Shown piece by piece: positions 2,812 to 38,050 of a stretch of 56,725 bases of DNA. Each line of letters begins with the position of its first letter. Position 1 is the stretch's first letter. The notes under the pieces were generated by a model. It searched no databases. It saw only the letters and a program-made list of their open reading frames with translations, and was not told the DNA's origin. The position numbers and the translations under genes were made by a program. Source of the stretch: a virus; IMG/VR virus record IMGVR_UViG_3300005466_000008, positions 1-56,725 of that record; one strand, given 5' to 3'.

Positions 2812-4101
2812 TCAGGCGTAGATCGTCGGGACGGTATAGGTACCGGACGACGACAGTTGCATGATGATCGCGCCACCACGCTGCCGGACGCCGGTACCGA
2901 AGCCCGTGACCCAGTACGAGTCGATCAGCGGGTAATCCGGGTTCCGGCCCTTGACGAGCCGCAGTCCACGCAGATTGGTATTTGCGTGCTGCCGCAGGCC
3001 GATCGGGTTCTGGAGGTTGTCCGGTCCGCCGGTCGCGAAGCTCGCCAGATAGTCGGTCGGCATGTAGTCGTCCACCACGATCAGCAGCGGGCCGTAGTTG
3101 CCGATGACGGTCAGACCACCCAGGGTTCCGGGCACCTGCGACTGACCGAAGACCTGAGTGGTCTGGGGCAGGATCTGACCGGGTTGCGGAGCCGCCGGAA
3201 CGAAGTCATACCGGCCGTAGTTGCCGCCGACCGCCTGCACCGCGTTGACCGCCGACCGGAAGTTCCGGATCTGGTTGCCCAGGGCGGTGTTGACCATCAC
3301 GACGAGCGTGTAGCCGTTCTCCTGAGAGTAGCCGTGGCTCGTGAAGTCGTCGATGATCATCGTGTCGAGGTCCTGGGCCTCGAGCACGGAGTTGGCACCA
3401 GAGGTCTTGTAGTGCGTGTGGCTGCCGGTGAACGTGTTGTTCTTGTACGCAGGCGGGACGGTACCGTCGGCGTTATAGAACTTGTAGACGTTGTAGTTGT
3501 TGCCGTTGATCGTCGCGGTGAGGTTGGTCGGGTTGAAGAGGCACTTGAGCACCTGGTTGAGCAGGAGCCGCCAGTAGGCCTCGACCGCCGCGTTACCGAC
3601 CGAGTCGATCATCGCCGTGGTCGCGTCGGCCAGGTACTGCCAGGTGTACCGCGAGCCGAGGTCATACCACTTGAACGTGTAGCCCATCTGGAAGTACGTG
3701 GGCTGGATGCGGCTGCCGACCGGCAGGCCGAATTCCGAGGCCTCCTCGAAGTCGACACCCTGGCCCGGCTGAGTCACGGTCTCGACGATGTTGGAGACAC
3801 CGAAGGTGAGGAAGTTGATGATGTTCTGACGCGGCTGGTTCACGGCGTTGAGAAGCGCCATGAAGTTTGCCCAGATGTCGTTCAGGTCAGTGCCATCAGC
3901 CGCTCGCGTGACGACATCCGCAGCGGTGTGGAACCCGTTCCGGTTGGCACCACCGGCGATGCCAGGCAGGATGCCCAGCGACCGAAGATCGACCAGCTCG
4001 TGACCGGGCATCGCCTTGCCGGAGACCAGGCCGGGCATGACCATGTTGGGGATGATGAGTCCCCGCTTGTTGTACTCCAGGGCTCGCGTGATGGTGTCCA
4101 C
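2812..4101 (-). CDS. Major capsid protein
   Basis: This 429-aa protein should form the icosahedral shell. It is the largest gene between the scaffold/decoration genes and the connectors, as expected for an HK97-fold capsid protein. It is rich in beta strand with aromatic and Asn/Gly content, and no protease gene is visible. The GTG start at 4101 is chosen because GAGGAAGGGGA lies 5 nt upstream. A longer frame from 4137 would overlap the decoration gene. An antisense open frame of similar length on the plus strand is a codon-bias shadow. Confidence 0.88.
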   Translation of the reverse strand: MDTITRALEYNKRGLIIPNMVMPGLVSGKAMPGHELVDLRSLGILPGIAGGANRNGFHTAADVVTRAADGTDLNDIWANFMALLNAVNQPRQNIINFLTFGVSNIVETVTQPGQGVDFEEASEFGLPVGSRIQPTYFQMGYTFKWYDLGSRYTWQYLADATTAMIDSVGNAAVEAYWRLLLNQVLKCLFNPTNLTATINGNNYNVYKFYNADGTVPPAYKNNTFTGSHTHYKTSGANSVLEAQDLDTMIIDDFTSHGYSQENGYTLVVMVNTALGNQIRNFRSAVNAVQAVGGNYGRYDFVPAAPQPGQILPQTTQVFGQSQVPGTLGGLTVIGNYGPLLIVVDDYMPTDYLASFATGGPDNLQNPIGLRQHANTNLRGLRLVKGRNPDYPLIDSYWVTGFGTGVRQRGGAIIMQLSSSGTYTVPTIYA

Positions 4102-4115
4102 CGAAGTCCCCTTCC

Positions 4116-4547
4116 TCAGCCCTGGAACGAGCCGCATCGGACCACGAGGCGCGTGGCCTCGACGGTCGTTCCGACATAGAAGACGTTGGTGCCCGCAGCG
4201 GGCGTACCCTGGGCCGCGAGACGGCTCGCCGTGGTGTCGAGGATGTACTTCGTCCCCGCCGTCGGAGTCGTGGCTCCCTGGATGTCGTTGGCATCCAGCT
4301 CCACGATCTCGCCGCTGGTCATCACGTCCACAATGTCACCCGCCGCCTTGGCCGAGGACAGACAAACCACACCGACGGCCGCTGCCGCCGTGGTGGCCTT
4401 GATGAGCTTGCCCGACCCATTGAGGGCGACCACGATCACCCGGTTGAGGTCCGAGACTCCCGACGGTCCCGAGGTGGCATTCCAAGCCGCATTCAGCGGC
4501 GCACGAAAGCCACCCGAATTGGGGGCATACTTGTCGATTCGGCTCAC
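4116..4547 (-). CDS. Head decoration / capsid stabilising protein
   Basis: This protein of about 143 aa is rich in Ala, Gly, Thr and Val, with repeating short strands (NRVIVVALNGSGKLIKAT, GTKYILDTTASRL). This is the pattern of small decoration proteins (DUF2190/gpD-like) that sit on the capsid surface. It lies between scaffold and major capsid genes. GTG at 4547 is preferred because AAGGGAG lies 6 nt upstream. GTG at 4553 is the alternative. Confidence 0.72.
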   Translation of the reverse strand: MSRIDKYAPNSGGFRAPLNAAWNATSGPSGVSDLNRVIVVALNGSGKLIKATTAAAAVGVVCLSSAKAAGDIVDVMTSGEIVELDANDIQGATTPTAGTKYILDTTASRLAAQGTPAAGTNVFYVGTTVEATRLVVRCGSFQG

Positions 4548-5601: not shown

Positions 5602-6900
5602 TTACGATTCTACTCTATGAACATGGGCCCTAACCCAAGTTCTACGAGCCAATAGTGAAGCAATAATCCGGTGGTTACCATCCTTGATGACTATCGCACC
5701 ACTCGGAAGAATCGTGAGATTGGGAAGATTGTCATCTCCCCCCGGAATACCCTCTTTAAGGTAATGTCGTATACGAGACACAGAAGCTTTGTCTTGGTGT
5801 GACAACAAAACCCTGCCCGACAAGTCTATTTCCTCAATCGGGCCTTTCTTACGAATCTCACTCGGGGGAACCTTAGCATCTCGGGGTGACAAGCTATCAA
5901 AAAGGTCTTTAATGCCCACCGTGGACGCATCTAGCTGATCACCATCTTTGTATTTGGCCAACCTCTTCAGCCCCGCATCACTATCCCAGGTGCTCACGCT
6001 AACTGGGGTAACATCTCCAACCGGCTGACCAAGCCTTGCCAAGTTTTCCTGAGTACGTCGCGTAAGTTCGTCGTCGAAATCTCCGCGTTCCAACGCTTTC
6101 TTGAAATCATCTGAAGACATCATCACGTAAGTCAGATAACAGAAGCAATTGGGATGTGGCTTGTCCGGCACCTCGTCAGGATCGTATGGCTCGTGTGCGG
6201 CAAAGACATTGCACTCGTCCGGCACCTTGTGCGATCCCGACAGATTCCACTTGACCGCTTTCACCCCTGGGCGATTCGCTCCTTCTTTCTGGCGCTCGTG
6301 GAAGGCATTGTTGATCTCAGTGCGTGCGAGACGCATAGCCGAATATGAAGATCCACCCGGCGCTGTCGGGCTGACATACCGATAAACCTCTGCGGCAAGC
6401 TCCTTCGCCGAGAGATTCTGAATCAGTCCTTGCCTGATGATGTCAACGATCCGGCCATCGTCTAGTGCCCGATTCGAGTACACGCGCCTGGACAGCGCTC
6501 GAGCACGACGAGCAGCATCACTCTTCAGCCCGGACGCTCCGGCGGCCCTCAGAGACGCCACAAGGGCATCAGCGGCCCGTTCTGACAGTCCGGCATACGC
6601 AATGCGTTCCAACGTCTCTATGGCGTCCTCAGCGGCCTGTAATGAGTCCTTGATGGCCCGTTCCACCAGTGGGTTGATCCGCCGGACCCACATCGTCTGC
6701 ACCAGAGCATTGATCGCAGCCAACGTCACGCGCAGCTGTGCAGCCCGAACCTCGCCACCGATCCCGACTGGCAAAGAAGCGATCCGTCGCTGGATCGCCT
6801 TGGCTGTTGCTTCAAGGATGCGCCGTAGTTCCGCCTCGGTGGTGGCCTGAACGATCGTATAGCGGCGGAACTCCGGACCCCTAGGCTGCGGAACCACCAT
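5602..6900 (-). CDS. MuF-like head morphogenesis protein with C-terminal ParB-like domain
   Basis: The first ~290 of 432 aa look like the SPP1 gp7/Mu gpF minor head protein. They include the helix SAMRLARTEINNAFHERQ and the Cys/His loop PHPNCFCYLTYV near residues 248-259. Such proteins bind the portal and enter with the DNA. The extra C-terminal region (about 300-432) ends in DGNHRIIASLLA, a motif typical of the ParB/sulfiredoxin-like fold. MuF proteins are known to carry C-terminal effector domains. The 3' third of the gene is clearly more AT-rich than its neighbours, which hints at acquisition. It overlaps the portal gene by 20 nt. Confidence 0.75.
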   Translation of the reverse strand: MVVPQPRGPEFRRYTIVQATTEAELRRILEATAKAIQRRIASLPVGIGGEVRAAQLRVTLAAINALVQTMWVRRINPLVERAIKDSLQAAEDAIETLERIAYAGLSERAADALVASLRAAGASGLKSDAARRARALSRRVYSNRALDDGRIVDIIRQGLIQNLSAKELAAEVYRYVSPTAPGGSSYSAMRLARTEINNAFHERQKEGANRPGVKAVKWNLSGSHKVPDECNVFAAHEPYDPDEVPDKPHPNCFCYLTYVMMSSDDFKKALERGDFDDELTRRTQENLARLGQPVGDVTPVSVSTWDSDAGLKRLAKYKDGDQLDASTVGIKDLFDSLSPRDAKVPPSEIRKKGPIEEIDLSGRVLLSHQDKASVSRIRHYLKEGIPGGDDNLPNLTILPSGAIVIKDGNHRIIASLLARRTWVRAHVHRVES

Positions 6901-8371
6901 TGTTCTGCCCGGTCTCCTGGTTCAACTGCGCCGTACCGAGCTGGGCTTCATTGCGGGCCTTGAACTCAGCGTCTGCCTTTGCTCCGATTCCATCGGGGAA
7001 GGAATATCCAAGCTTGGCCACTTCTTTCCGATAGAAGTCGGAATCGATAACCCCCCTGTCAAGCATGTCGTTTAGTTCGGTGAATCGCTGCACGCGGTCA
7101 ACTGGGATCGCATCACCAGCCACGCAGACAACATCGACACCAGCGAAGTTGGATGACTCGTAAGCATCCATCCACATCATCATGATGTCGTGCCACATCT
7201 GCGTCTCGGTGTCGACCAGCAGTTGATTCTTCTCGCCAGCTTTGGCGAGCATCGGGCCGAGCTGGAGCTGAAGCGCTACGCCGGATTGAGCGACAGACAC
7301 ATCGACTGCACCGACAGCGATTTCTGGGGTACCAGAGACGTTGTAGAGAGCATCCCAGAGCCGATCGTAGTGCACTCCATAAACGTCAGCGATTCCCTGC
7401 GCACCGCCGAGCTTGTCAAAGCTCTTACCGTCGTGGTGGATGACTCGGCCAGGACCCATCAGCCAGTTGGTCGGCTTGTTGGTGTCCGGGTCTACCGGCC
7501 TGCTCGCGTCGGTGGCGTACATGCCCACACCCTGCAAGGCGGCAGTCAAGTCCTCGTCACTAACGGTCTGGTTGATTGCACCCATGATGCGCTCGAGACC
7601 ACGGACCTCCGATGACCCGAAGGGATCTCCCGGCGTCTCCGTATTCTTGGTGTGGTACACCGGGAGTGCGGTGATCTGCTCGGGCAGTTCGGTCACGAGT
7701 TGGATGACAACCTCGGGAGCGATCGTGTCGTCCTCCCACTTGTCCACCTCGAAGAGACCTTCTTCAACGGTGATCCGGCCATTATCGGCCTTCCGGTACG
7801 TCAAGCGCCGGATACGGGGATCTCCCGCATCGTTGGTCGTAGGCTGCACCAGATGGCACCCGATCACCGTCTCGATGTCGTCCTCATCCGTGATGGGAAA
7901 GTACATGGAAGGGTCGAGCGCGCGCAAGGAAATCCGGCTGCCCTGGGGCTTATCGGGATCAGCAGTCACGTGCCAGATCGAGTCACCCCAGATCAAGCCG
8001 TATCGCTTCTTACCGTTGAACTTGCTCTTGTATCGCTCGCGCCGGATCAGGTCAGCGATGGCCAGCTGAGCCGCTACAACAGCATCGGCGCTCCCGCCAG
8101 CCACTCGAGGATCACTGATCGCTACGACCTGAAAGTCTGCCCCTAGGTAGCGATTTGTCGTGTCCACGATCGTACGCGTGGAGGGAATGTAGATGGGCTG
8201 CGAGTTACTGCCCCGGAGAGCCACCTTCAGGATATCCGGCACATTCCAATAGAGCTGCTCGTACAAGCGATAGGACTGCAAACGCTGCGCGTCCAAGTCG
8301 TCGGAGACGTACGCGGGCTTCTGCCCAAAGAACGCAGCCCCGGTGCTGTACGGGGTGAACTCCCCAGCCAT
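6881..8371 (-). CDS. Portal protein
   Basis: This 496-aa protein should form the dodecameric DNA gate. Length, position between large terminase and MuF-like gene, and internal features (SRISLRALDPSMYFPITDEDD wing region, GTPEIAVGAVDVSVAQSG clip/stem segment) match SPP1-like/phage Mu-type actinophage portals. GAGGTGAGGA directly precedes the ATG at 8371. It overlaps the MuF-like gene at its 3' end. Confidence 0.88.
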   Translation of the reverse strand: MAGEFTPYSTGAAFFGQKPAYVSDDLDAQRLQSYRLYEQLYWNVPDILKVALRGSNSQPIYIPSTRTIVDTTNRYLGADFQVVAISDPRVAGGSADAVVAAQLAIADLIRRERYKSKFNGKKRYGLIWGDSIWHVTADPDKPQGSRISLRALDPSMYFPITDEDDIETVIGCHLVQPTTNDAGDPRIRRLTYRKADNGRITVEEGLFEVDKWEDDTIAPEVVIQLVTELPEQITALPVYHTKNTETPGDPFGSSEVRGLERIMGAINQTVSDEDLTAALQGVGMYATDASRPVDPDTNKPTNWLMGPGRVIHHDGKSFDKLGGAQGIADVYGVHYDRLWDALYNVSGTPEIAVGAVDVSVAQSGVALQLQLGPMLAKAGEKNQLLVDTETQMWHDIMMMWMDAYESSNFAGVDVVCVAGDAIPVDRVQRFTELNDMLDRGVIDSDFYRKEVAKLGYSFPDGIGAKADAEFKARNEAQLGTAQLNQETGQNNGGSAA

Positions 8372-31593: not shown

Positions 31594-31778
31594 AGTGTGT
31601 ACGCCAGGATGACAACTACGCCACCGAAGAAACCGATGACGAGGAGAATCGCGCCGAAGATGAAGCCACCGATCCCTTTCTCCAACTTCGGGTCTTTCCA
31701 TCCGCTGGCGAATGAGACCAGGGCGCAGATTGCCCCGATCACGATCAGCACTACGCAGGCGATCAGCCATTCCTTCAT
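31590..31778 (-). CDS. Two-helix membrane protein (62 aa)
   Basis: Two membrane segments (about 4-24 and 35-60, ILLVIGFFGGVVVILAY) are joined by a short charged loop. It overlaps the polymerase stop and the nuclease start. A membrane protein embedded in a replication operon is unusual. Function is unknown. Confidence 0.6.
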   Translation of the reverse strand: MKEWLIACVVLIVIGAICALVSFASGWKDPKLEKGIGGFIFGAILLVIGFFGGVVVILAYTL

Positions 31779-34423
31779 GAGGACACCATCACATTCTGCT
31801 CAAGCCATTCCGTCAGCAGCACGTTATCCTTCTCCGTCCAGCCCAACAACTCGGCCGGTACTTCCTTGGCTTGACCCCATCGGGTACCAACCTTGCAGTC
31901 TGCAATTATCGGGATGTCTACGGCCACGTTAAAGAGCTCCTCGAGCGGCAGGTTCTCCATCGTGTCCTTGATGATGGGCAGCGCGTACGTCAACGCCGAT
32001 CCGTGGATCTCCCAGTTCACCGCGTCATGTACCGTACCGATCGGGTACGCCTCTACACCTTCTCTACGGAATCGCTTGGCTAGCAACACCATCGACAGCG
32101 CGCACATGTCCGAGGCGAACCCCTGGACTGGTGAGTTAATGGCCTGGCGCTCGGCTTCCGCCTGAACACCCTGATCTGGCGAGTAGATGTCGGGCAGGTG
32201 CCGGACGCGCCCCATCGGGGTCTCGACTCGCCCGTACTTGTGCGCCAGGGATCGCTGCTTCGCATGCCAGGGCAACAGCCCGGGGAACTGCGCGAAGAAC
32301 GCCTTCCGGAATGCTTGCGCCTCTTCCTCGGTGACACGCACCCCGTAGTTCTCCCAGGCGGTCATAACGAACTTGCGCCAACCCATGCCATACAGGAAGC
32401 CAAAGTTAACGGCCTTGGCCTTCTTCCGTTCCTCAGTCGTGACGCACTGACCACACCCGCACTTGCCGCCGTGCCATGGCTTTCCAGTCATCGTCATAGC
32501 CATGGTGGTGTGGATGTCTTGGCCGGTGTTGTAGAGGTGCATCATCGTCTGTTCACGCGCCAGCAATGCAGCGACGCGAAGCTCAACCTGTGAGTAGTCG
32601 AACTCGACGAAGTACGATCCGGGAGGTGCGCCGAACACCCCACGAGTCAGGTCACCGCGTGGAACCTGTTGCAGGTTCACACCCCGGATCTTCTTCTGGC
32701 CGGTGATCTTCTCCGCGTCTTCCTTGCCAGAAGACAAACGACCGGTCACCGTACCCCAGGGCTTGAACACGGAGTGCATGCGCGAGGTGGCATCGATTTG
32801 CTCGGACCAAGGCGAGAAGAATGAGGTGTCGAACTTGTTCCACTTCACGCGGTCAACGAGCAATCGGGCTACTTCTGCCCCGTTCGGATTACTCGGCTCT
32901 TCCGCCAGATAAGCCAGCGTCGCCTCATCCATGCTCGGCGCACCCGGCGTCCCATCATCCTTAGCCTTACCGCGTTTGAGTACCGGTAGACCAAGGTAAT
33001 CGTATAGGAACCATCGGGCGAAGTTAGACGCATTCCAGTTCACCCCAAACGACTTGATGTTCCCCGCCCTATCGTACTTGATGTACGGGTGCGTCTCCGG
33101 CACAAATTCGTCTAGCGCGTCGTGTAGATCCTCGAGCTTGGCCTTGACGATTCCCCAGTTCTTTTTCAACTGTGGTTCATCGACGAAGACACCACGACGC
33201 TCTACGTAGCATAGTTCTCTAACAAGAGGCATTGTGAGGTGTCGAAAAAACCGCGCCAGCCGAGGCTGATCGAGCAAGTTCTTCCGCAGCACGAAGAACA
33301 GCCGGAGCGTGTGCCAGGTATCTAGTCCGTTGTAATGCAGAACATCGACCAGCGGAGTGTTGAGCAAATCCTTCGTGTCGATGCCCCATGGCTCCGCCCC
33401 GAGCAACATCTGACCCAGTGGCTTCAAACCCTTCGGTCGATTCTCATCCAGCAGCGCCGCAGCAACGATCGTGTCGAAGGTGGGGACGAAGTCTTCTTCC
33501 CCGGTGAAGTGCTGCATCCACTTCGTGTCGTACTTCGCATTGTGTGCCACACGGCGCTTGCACTTCATCAGCGCCCGCGTGATGTGCCGGAGGACCGCGC
33601 GCCACTGTCGCCGGAACCACGACTCTGGGTGGTAGAGAGGCACGTTGTAGGTGTGGGCTGTTGTCATGTCGGGACCATCAGTCACCGTGACACTGATCGA
33701 TACCACGCGAGCGTCTGGTTCGTACTCAGCAGCGCCCGTCGTTTCGATGTCGTACGCACACGCCCATGCGTGCTGAACACGTCTTAGCATGGCTCTGAGA
33801 GCCTCTGAATCGCGTACCGTGGTCACGTGCCCGTCGTTGTTGTGGTGGTCGGGTTGCTCGCCCTGCCCCCGAATCAGTCGGCCGAAGTACTGGAGATCCG
33901 CGATGAAGCCACCACGCAAACCTGGGTTCCGATTGACAGCGCTTGGGCTGATAGTCGGGTAGATATACCCACCGCCCTCGGCGATGTTGAACAGCTTCCC
34001 CCGGTTCTTCGTGATGTCCGCCCAGCCAGAAGCGGCGAACCACGCCTCGCTACCTAGACACAGGACATAGTCAAAATCCATGAATGCGAACTCGGCCCGG
34101 AGGAACAGTGAGCACGTCTTCTGATCGGTCTTCGTCGGATCGAGACTATACGTCCGGCACTTCAATGCCGATAGCCACATGACCTGATGCGAATCGATAC
34201 CCGCCTCGGTCAGATACTCCACCATCTCCCGATGCATCTTGCCCCCGGGAGCAATGGGGAACTTGGTAACGATGGCTATCTTGGGCTTACCCTTGCTCTC
34301 GACCTGGCCGGTAATGCAGACCTCATCGTCCTCCGCATCTCGATGAAGTCGGCACTCGGTGCAACCTGCATTCCTAACGGCAAGCTCGAGGGCAGGGTGT
34401 CGTTTCAACTCAGGCCAACCCAT
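31775..34423 (-). CDS. Family A DNA polymerase with N-terminal degenerate UDG-like domain
   Basis: This 882-aa replicative polymerase has an N-terminal domain (about 1-190) that resembles family 4/5 uracil-DNA glycosylase. It keeps four Fe-S-type cysteines (C21, C24, C89, C104), but the catalytic motifs are altered: IVTKFPIAPGG replaces GEAPG, and SPSAVNR (159-165) replaces HPSxxxR. A 3'-5' exonuclease follows (DIET 225-228, HNAKYD, YNGLD). The polymerase core has motif A DYSQVELR at 609-616, motif B KAVNFGFLYG at about 670-679, and motif C VHDA at 798-801, where the usual Glu after HD is Ala. A CGCGQC knuckle is inserted in the fingers region. GTGGAGAA precedes the ATG. Confidence 0.9.
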   Translation of the reverse strand: MGWPELKRHPALELAVRNAGCTECRLHRDAEDDEVCITGQVESKGKPKIAIVTKFPIAPGGKMHREMVEYLTEAGIDSHQVMWLSALKCRTYSLDPTKTDQKTCSLFLRAEFAFMDFDYVLCLGSEAWFAASGWADITKNRGKLFNIAEGGGYIYPTISPSAVNRNPGLRGGFIADLQYFGRLIRGQGEQPDHHNNDGHVTTVRDSEALRAMLRRVQHAWACAYDIETTGAAEYEPDARVVSISVTVTDGPDMTTAHTYNVPLYHPESWFRRQWRAVLRHITRALMKCKRRVAHNAKYDTKWMQHFTGEEDFVPTFDTIVAAALLDENRPKGLKPLGQMLLGAEPWGIDTKDLLNTPLVDVLHYNGLDTWHTLRLFFVLRKNLLDQPRLARFFRHLTMPLVRELCYVERRGVFVDEPQLKKNWGIVKAKLEDLHDALDEFVPETHPYIKYDRAGNIKSFGVNWNASNFARWFLYDYLGLPVLKRGKAKDDGTPGAPSMDEATLAYLAEEPSNPNGAEVARLLVDRVKWNKFDTSFFSPWSEQIDATSRMHSVFKPWGTVTGRLSSGKEDAEKITGQKKIRGVNLQQVPRGDLTRGVFGAPPGSYFVEFDYSQVELRVAALLAREQTMMHLYNTGQDIHTTMAMTMTGKPWHGGKCGCGQCVTTEERKKAKAVNFGFLYGMGWRKFVMTAWENYGVRVTEEEAQAFRKAFFAQFPGLLPWHAKQRSLAHKYGRVETPMGRVRHLPDIYSPDQGVQAEAERQAINSPVQGFASDMCALSMVLLAKRFRREGVEAYPIGTVHDAVNWEIHGSALTYALPIIKDTMENLPLEELFNVAVDIPIIADCKVGTRWGQAKEVPAELLGWTEKDNVLLTEWLEQNVMVSS

Positions 34424-34881
34424 TTCTCCACGGTGATTCCAGCCTGGTTGAGAAGCTGGATACCTTCAACGTCACGGTATGCACGACCGTACATCACGCG
34501 GACGAGCCCGGCAGCGATGACGAGTTGGGAGCACGCGTAACACGGGCTGAGCGTCGTGTAGATGGTTCCGCCCTCGACGGAAACACCATTCCGCGCGCAG
34601 TAGGCAAGGGCATTGGCTTCCGCATGAATGGACACCCGGCAGCCATTCGACATGCCAACCTTGCCCGCCATCTGCTGACCAAGGGCAGACCGCAGATTCG
34701 GCGAGAACTCGATGACCTGATGCTCACAGTGGGGCATACCCGCCGGAGCGCCGTTGTATCCGGAGCCGAGCGTCCGGCCGTCCTTCGCGATGACCACACC
34801 AACGTGATTGCGCGAGCATGTACTGCGCTGCTCCCACATCTGCGCTATGCGCATCAGTGTCTCATCGACCGTAGGTCTCAC
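34405..34881 (-). CDS. Deoxycytidylate (dCMP) deaminase
   Basis: This 158-aa zinc enzyme converts dCMP to dUMP. It has the HAE motif at 86-88 and PCYAC (113-117, PCxxC), plus GYNGAPAGMPHCEH with extra zinc/allosteric residues. It belongs to the cytidine/dCMP deaminase family. The GTG start overlaps the stop of the synthase-like gene (GTGA). In T4-like phages the same enzyme feeds dTMP synthesis while dCMP is drawn into hydroxymethylation. Confidence 0.9.
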   Translation of the reverse strand: MRPTVDETLMRIAQMWEQRSTCSRNHVGVVIAKDGRTLGSGYNGAPAGMPHCEHQVIEFSPNLRSALGQQMAGKVGMSNGCRVSIHAEANALAYCARNGVSVEGGTIYTTLSPCYACSQLVIAAGLVRVMYGRAYRDVEGIQLLNQAGITVEKWVGLS

Positions 34882-35783
34882 ACCGCACCCCCGATGAAGT
34901 CGTCGTCCTGGTCGTAGTCCGAGACGAGTTTGATCCGGTTGAGGATATTCCTCTTATCGCCGGTGAATGCATGTAGGTTGGCGATGTGCATCACAAGCTT
35001 CCCCGGTCGGATCCCGAGTTGTATCGGTGCACGTTCGGTCCGACGCTTCAGCTCGGCACACACCCAGCGCATGAGAGCCACGGCGAAGTAAACGTCATTC
35101 GACAGGTGTCGATAGAAGTCGACGGATCTAATGTAGTAGCGCATCGAGAGATAACCACCGCGCTGCATGAAGTGATAGCCGAGCGTGCACGGCACTCGGT
35201 TCAGCTCGCCATGGCCGAACTTGGCCAGCTCGGGATCGTTGGCGAAGCCCGCCCCGGTGTCCTCGGGAAACCAGATTGGTAGATACGCTTGGCGCGTCAG
35301 CGGATTGCGCAGCAGGAGCGAGACCACGTCGTTCAGGTCACCGTAGTGGAAGCGGATACCCATCATCCCGGAACGGACTCTATTCTCCCCGATGGGCCAT
35401 CCAGCATGCTTCGGCCAGAACCGCTCCGGGTAGGTGTGGTCGAAGACCGAGTTCTGGTCAATGTGGTCGGCGTTCCCTCGCACCGCGTACGGCCAGCGCA
35501 AGTGTGAGGGCGAAGGATTCAAGGGCAAGCCGGACACCCGCTCGGCGAAATGCTCACGAGCCCAGGCAGTGTCTACAGCGGGGATCGCGCCAGAGGGGTC
35601 ATCCGGAACCTGGTCCCAGACGAGCGACACGTCTTCGAGCTCGTAAGTCTCATGCATCGAGCTGGTCCGCGTGTCCATCGCCTGCCACTCGCCGGTGTGG
35701 ACCGGCTTCTGTTCCAGCAGGTCGCTGGCCAGATGCAGATACGAGGGCCGAGGATTATCGATAGCCATATAGTAGACGTGCAT
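34878..35783 (-). CDS. Thymidylate-synthase-fold enzyme A, predicted dCMP hydroxymethylase
   Basis: This 301-aa protein aligns by eye with ThyA. It has RQAYLPIWFPED (Arg of the phosphate site), a catalytic Cys in VPCT (C199), GGYLSMRYYIRSVDF (R219, D222), then D230 at the position of E. coli ThyA N177 (L. casei N229), and HIANLHAF (H271). Asn-to-Asp at that position switches the substrate from dUMP to dCMP and is found in T4 dCMP hydroxymethylase. I therefore predict 5-hydroxymethyl-dCMP synthesis. It overlaps neighbours by 1-4 nt in a nucleotide-metabolism cassette. Confidence 0.75.
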   Translation of the reverse strand: MHVYYMAIDNPRPSYLHLASDLLEQKPVHTGEWQAMDTRTSSMHETYELEDVSLVWDQVPDDPSGAIPAVDTAWAREHFAERVSGLPLNPSPSHLRWPYAVRGNADHIDQNSVFDHTYPERFWPKHAGWPIGENRVRSGMMGIRFHYGDLNDVVSLLLRNPLTRQAYLPIWFPEDTGAGFANDPELAKFGHGELNRVPCTLGYHFMQRGGYLSMRYYIRSVDFYRHLSNDVYFAVALMRWVCAELKRRTERAPIQLGIRPGKLVMHIANLHAFTGDKRNILNRIKLVSDYDQDDDFIGGAV

Positions 35784-36001
35784 TACTTATTGTCCTCCTC
35801 AATCAATCCCTCGCGGACGAGGACTCCACGAAGAGACATTGATGTACGCGCGTGGCTTTGGGCCAACTGGGCCAATATCTGCTGTGCTCCTACGTAATCG
35901 TCAAGCTCGAGCGCCAGATAAGCCTGTCGATATTTGTCTTCGATGCGTTTCATAAATGCTTCGAAGTTCTTCATCATGAGGGCTTTCTTGCGCTTATCCA
36001 T
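35783..36001 (-). CDS. Small protein between two synthase paralogues
   Basis: This 72-aa, highly charged helical protein (KALMMKNFEAFMKRIEDKYRQ is split by charge; LDDYVGAQQILAQLAQSHA) is coupled to both synthase-like genes by TGATG and TAATG. It may be a subunit or regulator of that pair, inferred only from position. Confidence 0.55.
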   Translation of the reverse strand: MDKRKKALMMKNFEAFMKRIEDKYRQAYLALELDDYVGAQQILAQLAQSHARTSMSLRGVLVREGLIEEDNK

Positions 36002-36987
36002 CAGTCCTCGTCCTCGTCCAGCGGCAAGTTCTCATCGTGGTCGAAGTACGAGTCGTCACCATCCCGACCGGCCAGCGGTTTGCGGAGACCCAGGTCCCGT
36101 ACCCAGTTGTCGGGCAGTGGAGGGAACGCACCCTTGCCGCCTCGATTACGCACACCTCCGGCGAACTGATCGGCGTAGTCAACCCCATACGCCTCAGTGT
36201 GAAAGCGCCGCCGGACGCGAGCGAACGAGGAGAACGACTCATCACCATAGAGCGTCCCCGCTCGATCGGACTTCAGAATCCGAGCGTAGCCATCGAGACA
36301 CTTCCGGTATCCGGGCTGCTCTTTTGGTGAGAACGACATCCGGTTGTCTACATCCTCATCCATCTGCTTCCGAATATCAGGATCCATCAGCATCCACGCC
36401 AGCGATCGGAAGCCGTGGAACTGTGCAAGCTCGAGGGTCCACACAAACTGGACGTCATCCAGATCGTAGCCGCAGATGTCCGCCGCTTCCGCAGCGAAGG
36501 CACGAGCTACGGCCATGTCCACCATTGCCAGGTAACCAAAGTACGTTGTCCGGCTGTGCAGCGAGACCGTGGGGATCGGCGTAGCGCGGAAGCTCAGGGA
36601 CAGCATGCAAGACCCCCAGCGACGCCGGACACCCCGACCGACCCCCCGACCCTGTACGAGCCGCGTACGGAGCACTGAGATACCTCTACGGTCCCCCCTG
36701 GTACGTGGGGGTGCCATCCGGTCAGCGATCTTAGCCATGCAATCGTTGAGGGCGATCGGGTCGAGGTACTGCCGAACCATCATGGTCCAACGAGTCGGTG
36801 GAACCCAGAGACGTTTCAGGTTGTAGTCGAAGGCGATAGAGTCGCAGTGAATGGCGACATTGTGCAGACCTACCTCCGTGCCGTGCACGAAGTCCCAGTC
36901 CGTTCCCCCATTGTCCCCGTACACTAGCTGCTCGCACATCGCCTCGTGAGCCGCGACAGGGTTGGGGAAGCTGAACGACCGGATCAT
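36001..36987 (-). CDS. Thymidylate-synthase-fold protein B, divergent paralogue
   Basis: This 328-aa protein shows a weaker but clear ThyA core: SC at the nucleophile (C127, in RRWGSCM), SLHSRTTYF (R146), D157 at the Asn177-equivalent position, and FVWT (181-184) followed by H191. The Asp of the RSxD motif is replaced by Tyr. An Arg/Gly-rich stretch precedes the Cys, and an acidic tail ends the protein. It could be a second hydroxymethylase, a partner of A, or act on a modified nucleotide. GGACTGATG coupling links it to the next gene. Confidence 0.6.
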   Translation of the reverse strand: MIRSFSFPNPVAAHEAMCEQLVYGDNGGTDWDFVHGTEVGLHNVAIHCDSIAFDYNLKRLWVPPTRWTMMVRQYLDPIALNDCMAKIADRMAPPRTRGDRRGISVLRTRLVQGRGVGRGVRRRWGSCMLSLSFRATPIPTVSLHSRTTYFGYLAMVDMAVARAFAAEAADICGYDLDDVQFVWTLELAQFHGFRSLAWMLMDPDIRKQMDEDVDNRMSFSPKEQPGYRKCLDGYARILKSDRAGTLYGDESFSSFARVRRRFHTEAYGVDYADQFAGGVRNRGGKGAFPPLPDNWVRDLGLRKPLAGRDGDDSYFDHDENLPLDEDED

Positions 36988-37493
36988 CGGACGAACTCGC
37001 CGGACATCTCACAGAATGGCAGAACGGGTAGGGATCCCGTTTCCTCGGCAGACACCGCCGGATAGCACTTGACGTCCTCATCGTCATACGCTCGACGACA
37101 GGCCGGGCACTTGGTAGACTTCGCATCGTAGCCTTCGGTCCACCGCCGGAGGTTCTTCGTCTGCTTATCATCCACGGCCTGAAAAAGTTCTGTGGTCGTT
37201 ACTCCACCAGCTAGCATCAAGTTCATGAAGAAGATGTAAACATCCGCCAGTTCCCCGATGTACCGCTGCTTGCTGATAACCACCGGCTCTCCATCTGGGC
37301 GAACAGCCCATGGCTTCCAGTGGGTTTCCTCCACCGCCTCGTACGTCTCGCCGATCATCGCGAAAGCCTGGTCCCGGATATATTGCGAGAGCGCATCGGG
37401 ATCCATGTCGTCCACACGTCGGGCCAGCAGGAACGCTTGCAAATCGGCCTGCCGCTGGAGCAGCCGCGTTGCGCGGGGGTCGAGAGTCACCAT
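36984..37493 (-). CDS. MazG/dimeric dUTPase-like NTP pyrophosphatase with zinc tail
   Basis: This 169-aa all-helical protein has the dUTPase-2/MazG metal-binding layout: IGETYEAVEETHWKPW (E..E E) and YIGELADVYIFFMNLML (E..D). T4 gp56 (dCTPase/dUTPase) performs this job and keeps unmodified dCTP out of DNA. A C-terminal Cys cluster (CPACRRAYDDEDVKC...C) probably binds zinc. ATG at 37493 has GGAG upstream; ATG at 37511 is the coupled alternative. Confidence 0.75.
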   Translation of the reverse strand: MVTLDPRATRLLQRQADLQAFLLARRVDDMDPDALSQYIRDQAFAMIGETYEAVEETHWKPWAVRPDGEPVVISKQRYIGELADVYIFFMNLMLAGGVTTTELFQAVDDKQTKNLRRWTEGYDAKSTKCPACRRAYDDEDVKCYPAVSAEETGSLPVLPFCEMSGEFVR

Positions 37494-37510
37494 GATTACT
37501 CCGTCTTCCA

Positions 37511-38050
37511 TTACATGTTCTCCAGAGTCTTGATCAGATCCTGTCTGGTCTCGCGTGTCCGGTCGTACCGGATCACCGTACCGGGCCAGCGGAGTGTGTT
37601 GTATCGCGTCCAGATGGAGTACCGGTTCTCGAACACACCGGGCATGTGCGCTTCTCGTCCCTGCGTCTGAAGAACGCGCTCGACCTCCTCATACGGAGGG
37701 CAGCAGATGATGAGAATGGACATCGACCCCATATCCTTCGTGACGGAACGCATCCAGTTCTCGTCACCAAAGCCTTCGGACATCCCCGGGTTCACCCAGC
37801 GGTAGTTGGCGTAGATGGGTTCGCTGATCAGGGGGTGGCGGTCGTAGATGTATGTCGGATGACCCGAGTCCAATTCCAACTCGTCCAGATGATCCAGGTC
37901 TCGATCCACCCAGCCGCGCAAGTTCTTGACCGGTCCGGTCATGCTGTCGCTGGCACGAGGATGCCTGACTAGATCGAAGTACTCTGCCAACACCCCGATG
38001 AGACCAGTCTTACCCGAGCCGTCGCATCCCTCGACGATGATGTGCTTCAT
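37511..38050 (-). CDS. Deoxynucleoside monophosphate kinase (P-loop)
   Basis: This 179-aa protein has GCDGSGKT (P-loop, residues 8-15), a DRHPLISEP lid/base-contact segment, and the ILIICCPP strand of thymidylate-kinase-like enzymes. It would phosphorylate a dNMP to dNDP. In the context of a predicted hmdCMP pathway, it is the natural candidate to activate the modified nucleotide (compare T4 gp1), although ordinary dTMP is also possible. Confidence 0.78.
   Translation of the reverse strand: MKHIIVEGCDGSGKTGLIGVLAEYFDLVRHPRASDSMTGPVKNLRGWVDRDLDHLDELELDSGHPTYIYDRHPLISEPIYANYRWVNPGMSEGFGDENWMRSVTKDMGSMSILIICCPPYEEVERVLQTQGREAHMPGVFENRYSIWTRYNTLRWPGTVIRYDRTRETRQDLIKTLENM

Follow-up and report, generated by a model that had tools for sequence, protein, structure and literature searches.

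What does a second thymidylate synthase (TS)-like protein do in a phage operon that already encodes one? The question is raised by a viral stretch of 56,725 nt (IMG/VR record IMGVR_UViG_3300005466_000008), analysed over its full length and called the window here, in which two such proteins, designated A and B, are encoded on either side of a gene for a 72-aa protein. The initial annotation had proposed that the pair forms a heteromeric enzyme, that B has a second substrate, or that B is a regulatory pseudoenzyme.

Gene arrangement around protein B

Protein B (328 aa) is encoded by a genuine ORF with an ATG start at 36001..36987, on the minus strand, which the initial annotation had not given. 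The neighbouring genes lie on the same strand and run in the order thymidylate-kinase-like nucleoside monophosphate kinase (37511..38050; phrog_761, 6e-9), dUTPase/MazG-like all-alpha NTP pyrophosphohydrolase (36984..37511; phrog_18650, 6e-24; phrog_173, 1e-8), B, the 72-aa protein M (35783..36001), the cytosine-type TS-superfamily protein A (34878..35783; 301 aa; phrog_160, E 1e-25), dCMP deaminase (34405..34881; PF00383, 1.5e-21; phrog_174, 3e-52) and family-A DNA polymerase (31775..34423; phrog_17, 3.5e-150), the last gene of the conserved block. The genes overlap by 4 nt between dUTPase/MazG and B, 1 nt between B and M, 1 nt between M and A, and 4 nt between A and the deaminase. Without M, the block of kinase, dUTPase/MazG, B, A, dCMP deaminase and DNA polymerase is kept from phages of Gordonia and Mycobacterium (including Muddy) to phages of Serratia and Yersinia. 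The initial picture of a 72-aa gene between two paralogues therefore holds at this locus, but as a local variant of a B-A pair that is general.

The importance that the initial annotation had attached to the 72-aa gene found no support. M is a helical, charged protein that matched no family at a meaningful E-value in searches of Pfam and PHROGs. It is lineage-specific, with homologues recognisable in the closest relatives only, and was rejected as a conserved third subunit. A non-exhaustive scan of the window ORFs revealed no downstream modification gene such as a glycosyltransferase.

Fold and active-site residues of protein B

The AF2 model of B, built with 75 sequences, had a pLDDT of 92.2 and a pTM of 0.91. 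In a Foldseek search of the PDB the best 50 rows all belonged to the TS superfamily; the 13 matches at E <= 0.001 were all enzymes of cytosine nucleotides (MilA, AfhB and the dCMP hydroxymethylase of T4), and dTMP synthases ranked behind these. VIA aligned about 170-190 residues and gave Z values of 16.4 for AfhB, 15.5 for MilA and 12.3 for the best TS, with TS-superfamily proteins continuing down to about 11; AfhB and MilA, being within 1 Z, are tied as the closest structures. A BFVD search with the B model was topped by uncharacterised phage proteins, followed by TS relatives that included the S protein of phage PMBT14, a member of a sister family described below. The AF2 model of A (pLDDT 85.8) gave a near tie in VIA between AfhB (Z 19.0), MilA (18.6) and TS (about 18), and AfhB is the best VIA match of both proteins. 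In the B model, C127 stands just before strand 128-134, R146 lies within strand 140-149 and D157 starts helix 153-172, and the same placement was found in A. The initial annotation had described B as a divergent second TS-fold protein and had suggested AlphaFold-type modelling as a check; the matches listed for the confident model were all TS-superfamily structures, no unrelated fold emerged, and membership of B in the TS fold is supported at the level of predicted structure.

At the sequence level this relationship is hardly visible. Pfam gave nothing meaningful for B and no PF00303 match, searches of PDB sequences with B and its profile (phmmer, hmmsearch) returned no match, and hhalign comparison of B with A or TS was not significant. 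The homology therefore rests on the fold together with the register of the residues. We used E. coli TS numbering, verified against its sequence, in which the nucleophile is C146, the phosphate-binding Arg is R166, the folate-binding Asp is D169 and the pyrimidine selector is N177 (R166 + 11). The residues that had been read from the sequence, namely C127, R146, D157 and the FVWT motif (F181-V-W-T184), are all present in B, and the Asp of RSxD is indeed missing, the stretch counted from R146 being R-T-T-Y149. On the minus strand, the codons are located at 36607..36609 for C127, the predicted nucleophile, at 36550..36552 for R146, the predicted phosphate-binding Arg, at 36541..36543 for Y149 in place of the folate-binding Asp, and at 36517..36519 for D157 at the TS N177 position. 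The Arg/Gly-rich segment before the Cys (residues about 102-125, RGISVLRTRLVQGRGVGRGVRRRWG; 36613..36684, minus strand) and the acidic C-terminal tail (DGDDSYFDHDENLPLDEDED; 36004..36072, minus strand) are also both present. The former is conserved in B, not in the sister families Bi or S, and has a model pLDDT of about 80-94. The tail has low model confidence and was rejected as a family feature, as Gordonia and Mycobacterium homologues are without it.

Conservation separates two sets of positions. C127, R146, D157 and a fourth residue, Y74 (codon 36766..36768, minus strand), are invariant in all 112 B, Bi and S proteins. The position of TS D169, by contrast, is Tyr in 90/90 B proteins, mostly Ser in Bi and Glu in 12/12 S proteins, and the ribose-binding His of B (H191) is lost in Bi and S. 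The residue at R+11 is Asp in B, Bi, S, A, AfhB and T4 gp42, and Asn in E. coli TS. In the A family, C199, R219 and D230 were found in 133/133 proteins, and the D222 position holds Asp in 129 of them and Glu in the other 4. A thus combines the RSxD folate Asp with Cys, Arg and an Asp at TS 177, which is the pattern of cytosine-nucleotide TS relatives. An invariant Glu of A, E81, lies in the right helix for the catalytic Glu58, with an alignment register that is uncertain, and neither in A nor in B was a residue confidently matched to this Glu.

Published work identifies an Asp at the selector position as the residue that selects cytosine rather than uracil (PMC5175136, PMC6841964). A metagenomic screen aimed at modified cytosine found that, among the positions of TS homologues, 177 and 147 discriminated best between modified and unmodified contigs, the modified ones having mostly Asp at 177 (PMC8670742). 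The importance of the folate Asp for folate chemistry is supported by the title of PDB entry 1bjg, 'D221(169)N mutant does not promote opening of the cofactor imidazolidine ring'. Because the folate Asp is lost and the predicted nucleotide-contacting residues are invariant, B reads as a nucleotide-activating, folate-independent enzyme; it looks like a live enzyme in which the nucleotide-handling part of TS chemistry has been retained and the folate part given up. We infer that B is catalytic. That B might instead be a paralogue of A with no catalysis of its own, with a role in regulation, as the pseudoenzyme proposal had it, or in scaffolding, is in keeping with the absence of the folate Asp and, probably, of the catalytic Glu, and with the loss of the ribose-binding His from Bi and S. 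However, non-catalytic paralogues usually lose their catalytic residues first, and here the nucleophile, the phosphate-binding Arg and the base-reading Asp are invariant in 112 sequences of three subfamilies that are otherwise little alike. We therefore disfavour the pseudoenzyme and regard it as very improbable.

B-type proteins and their inheritance with A

Protein B is a member of phrog_13667, a family of unknown function (E 1e-78). A tblastn search found relatives in 85 phage records, those listed having about 31-39% identity to B. The records come from phages of Gordonia, Mycobacterium, Streptomyces, Microbacterium and Curtobacterium; in every region opened the gene order was the same, and B was labelled hypothetical in each of the public phage records among them. 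Two scans of IMG/VR gave 16 and 79 loci. Among 84,980 prokaryote species genomes, B was found only on one 61-kb contig of a MAG, which is probably itself a phage.

Searching with A led to a second family, S (256-285 aa), in proteobacterial phages including Serbin, PMBT14, Yersinia phage P744 and Brevundimonas phage Polewnik. S occupies the slot of B directly upstream of A, shows profile similarity to B (hhalign E 6e-8) and weakly matches phrog_34294-like proteins, which are as unassigned in function as phrog_13667. A third set, Bi, bridges S and B (Bi against B, E 3e-38). Two submitters had named S-type proteins 'pyrimidine hmase synthase'. Direct searches of viral contigs with single S proteins yielded 0 and 2 loci. 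A single duplication was seen, on contig L041, where tandem B-type genes (5965-6972 and 6972-7895) lie upstream of A.

At every B locus that runs far enough, A is the next recognised gene; one contig (L069) ends just past B, and two (L084 and L085) truncate A. B was never seen without A, and A is sometimes alone. No fused A-B ORF was found among the loci checked. The A family profile matched MilA (3e-8), AfhB (2e-6) and a TS N229D mutant (6e-6). On the A tree the partner types cluster, requiring 7 changes compared with a shuffled mean of 41.6. The A proteins paired with S group in a single clade (100/99). Its sister (100/94) is the main A-only clade, and this is placed among B-paired A proteins, a pattern that fits an old pairing of A with its partner followed by loss in one line. 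The A-only clade suggests that B is not always needed. Profiles of B, Bi and S found nothing in 10-14 A-only records, the positive controls being detected for S and Bi only. This absence weighs little, because a divergent partner may have escaped detection and the contigs may be incomplete. The A-only clade comes from contigs of aquatic phages that in some cases exceed 100 kb (L149, L155, L158, L161, L163, L192, L197 and others, with A at about 3429-4230), and in some of them A stands beside an IMPDH/GMP-reductase-like gene. At position 273 of these A proteins, Trp mostly takes the place of Phe.

The one-sided dependence, with A sometimes alone and B never, suggests that B probably acts on the product of A or needs A as a partner. 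The strict linkage itself fits either a second substrate or product or a heteromeric enzyme. A mirror-tree analysis of coevolution spoke neither for nor against a heteromer, with a partial r of 0.31 for A-B and 0.52 for B-kinase; the kinase (37511-38050) tracks B closer than A does and perhaps handles its product, although this signal is weak. Taken together, B represents a real, widespread and uncharacterised TS-fold family that is tied to a cytosine-type TS relative.

Thymine or cytosine chemistry of A and B

The CT-cluster operon has been published as a thymine synthesis pathway, with B omitted, and all four thymine genes were said to occur in CT-cluster phages only (PMC10353413). Contrary to that report, the four-gene set (homologues of window 31775-38050) is also present in Muddy/FF47, Zuko, Triscuit, Shrew and proteobacterial phages. 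If the operon made dTMP only, B would be an accessory to thymidylate synthesis, and the adjoining dCMP deaminase, dUTPase and thymidylate-kinase-like genes suit such a role. B does share its fold and the positions of Cys and Arg with ThyA. However, Asn177 and Asp169 of ThyA are both replaced in B, which also has no Pfam match, and the Asn at TS 177 is absent from A (Asp in 133/133) as well as from the B-type proteins (Asp in 112/112). Moreover, ThyX is also encoded in 16/46 of the records with A and B or S and a full ThyA in 2/46, so that 18/46 of these phages have a separate dTMP synthase; phages that already make dTMP do not need A and B for it, which argues that the pair does not serve thymine synthesis. 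A separate ThyA-type match above the family cut-off was also found in 5/10 A-only records. We thus consider it hardly probable that the operon makes dTMP only, and the thymine description (PMC10353413) should be revisited. In Microbacterium phage Triscuit (L021), one of the two phages with a full ThyA, both enzyme types can be compared within one operon, A at 6361-7281 being followed directly by a canonical full ThyA at 7281-8078 (PF00303, E 4e-123).

Most likely, A and B constitute a two-protein pathway for an altered cytosine building block of phage DNA. On balance, and by a modest preference, we take B to be an active, folate-free, cytosine-nucleotide enzyme of the TS superfamily that together with A makes a modified dCMP replacing genomic cytosine. 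As a cytosine-type TS relative that retains the folate Asp, A would probably hydroxymethylate dCMP with CH2-THF to hm-dCMP, or methylate it. In B, C127 would attack C6 while R146 grips the phosphate and D157 reads N3/N4 of the cytosine; methylene-tetrahydrofolate would no longer be used, because the pterin-binding Asp is gone. B may thus form a C6-Cys adduct on the product of A or on dCMP and complete a folate-free change at C5, or it may act as the obligate partner of A. The best precedent for a non-folate co-substrate would be flavin, by analogy with AfhB, a TS-fold enzyme whose FAD-dependent hydroxylation of dCMP at C5 is taken from PDB titles and from PMC13390438, which describes the 5-hodCMP synthase. 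The kinase would then lift the modified dCMP to the triphosphate, the dUTPase/MazG protein would clear competing dCTP and dUTP, like gp1 and gp56 in T4, and the adjacent DNA polymerase would insert the modified nucleotide in place of C.

The composition of the operon resembles the modified-cytosine pathway of T4, in which gp1, gp56 and the polymerase follow the same logic of kinase, pyrophosphohydrolase and incorporation. The operon logic of T4 gp42 dCMP hydroxymethylase and the CMP hydroxymethylase MilA is alike (kinase, dUTPase-type pyrophosphohydrolase, deaminase), and both enzymes have the TS fold and the cytosine-selecting Asp in common with A and B. They keep the folate Asp, however, and in their systems one TS-like protein suffices; A is closer to them than B is.

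The evidence thus points to modification of cytosine nucleotides by a folate-free TS-fold enzyme in an operon published as thymine synthesis. If this is true, modified cytosine would be expected in the DNA of phages in wide use, namely Gordonia CT-cluster phages and mycobacteriophages Muddy and FF47, with a bearing on restriction resistance, sequencing and the engineering of therapeutic phages, and B would join the few TS-fold enzymes whose chemistry does not use folate. More broadly, and only tentatively, a TS-fold pair with one folate-using and one folate-independent member could make an undescribed modified deoxycytidine in the nucleotide pool that replaces genomic cytosine in many phages of actinobacteria and proteobacteria, among them the therapeutic phage Muddy. 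We found no literature report that the DNA of these phages is modified or resists restriction; the prediction of modified cytosine can be checked in phages already cultured.

The main alternative to successive action of A and B is a heteromer. Enzymes of the TS type work as dimers, each active site taking arginines from the other subunit, and A and B could form one heteromeric enzyme in which B completes the site of A, or the reverse, with no separate step. Besides this dimeric architecture, the shared superfamily fold, the strict adjacency of overlapping genes and the co-inheritance on the A tree would all suit a heteromer. However, A and B each retain their own Cys, Arg and Asp and neither resembles a stripped subunit, and the A-only clade indicates that A is able to stand alone. 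We regard the heteromer as possible but doubtful. Less likely still is that B is a flavin-dependent dCMP 5-hydroxylase of the AfhB type, acting directly on dCMP and chemically independent of A. AfhB, the 5-hydroxy-dCMP synthase of T4-like phages (PDB 9iqu, 9iqc), has the TS fold, Cys, Arg and R+11 Asp as in B and tops its VIA list; both have lost the folate Asp, with Asn in AfhB (RSQN) and Tyr in B, and the H-x-F of AfhB is also found in B. However, MilA scores within the same 1 Z, and AfhB belongs to PF00303 and phrog_160, neither of which B matches, with about 10% identity between the two. B is also always accompanied by A, whereas no B-like partner was seen beside AfhB in AfhB-type phages. 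In one phage with an AfhB-type gene, Escherichia phage mogra, a nucleotide-kinase-like P-loop protein is encoded one gene after it (L120:2752-3300) and is possibly a 5-hydroxy-dCMP kinase.
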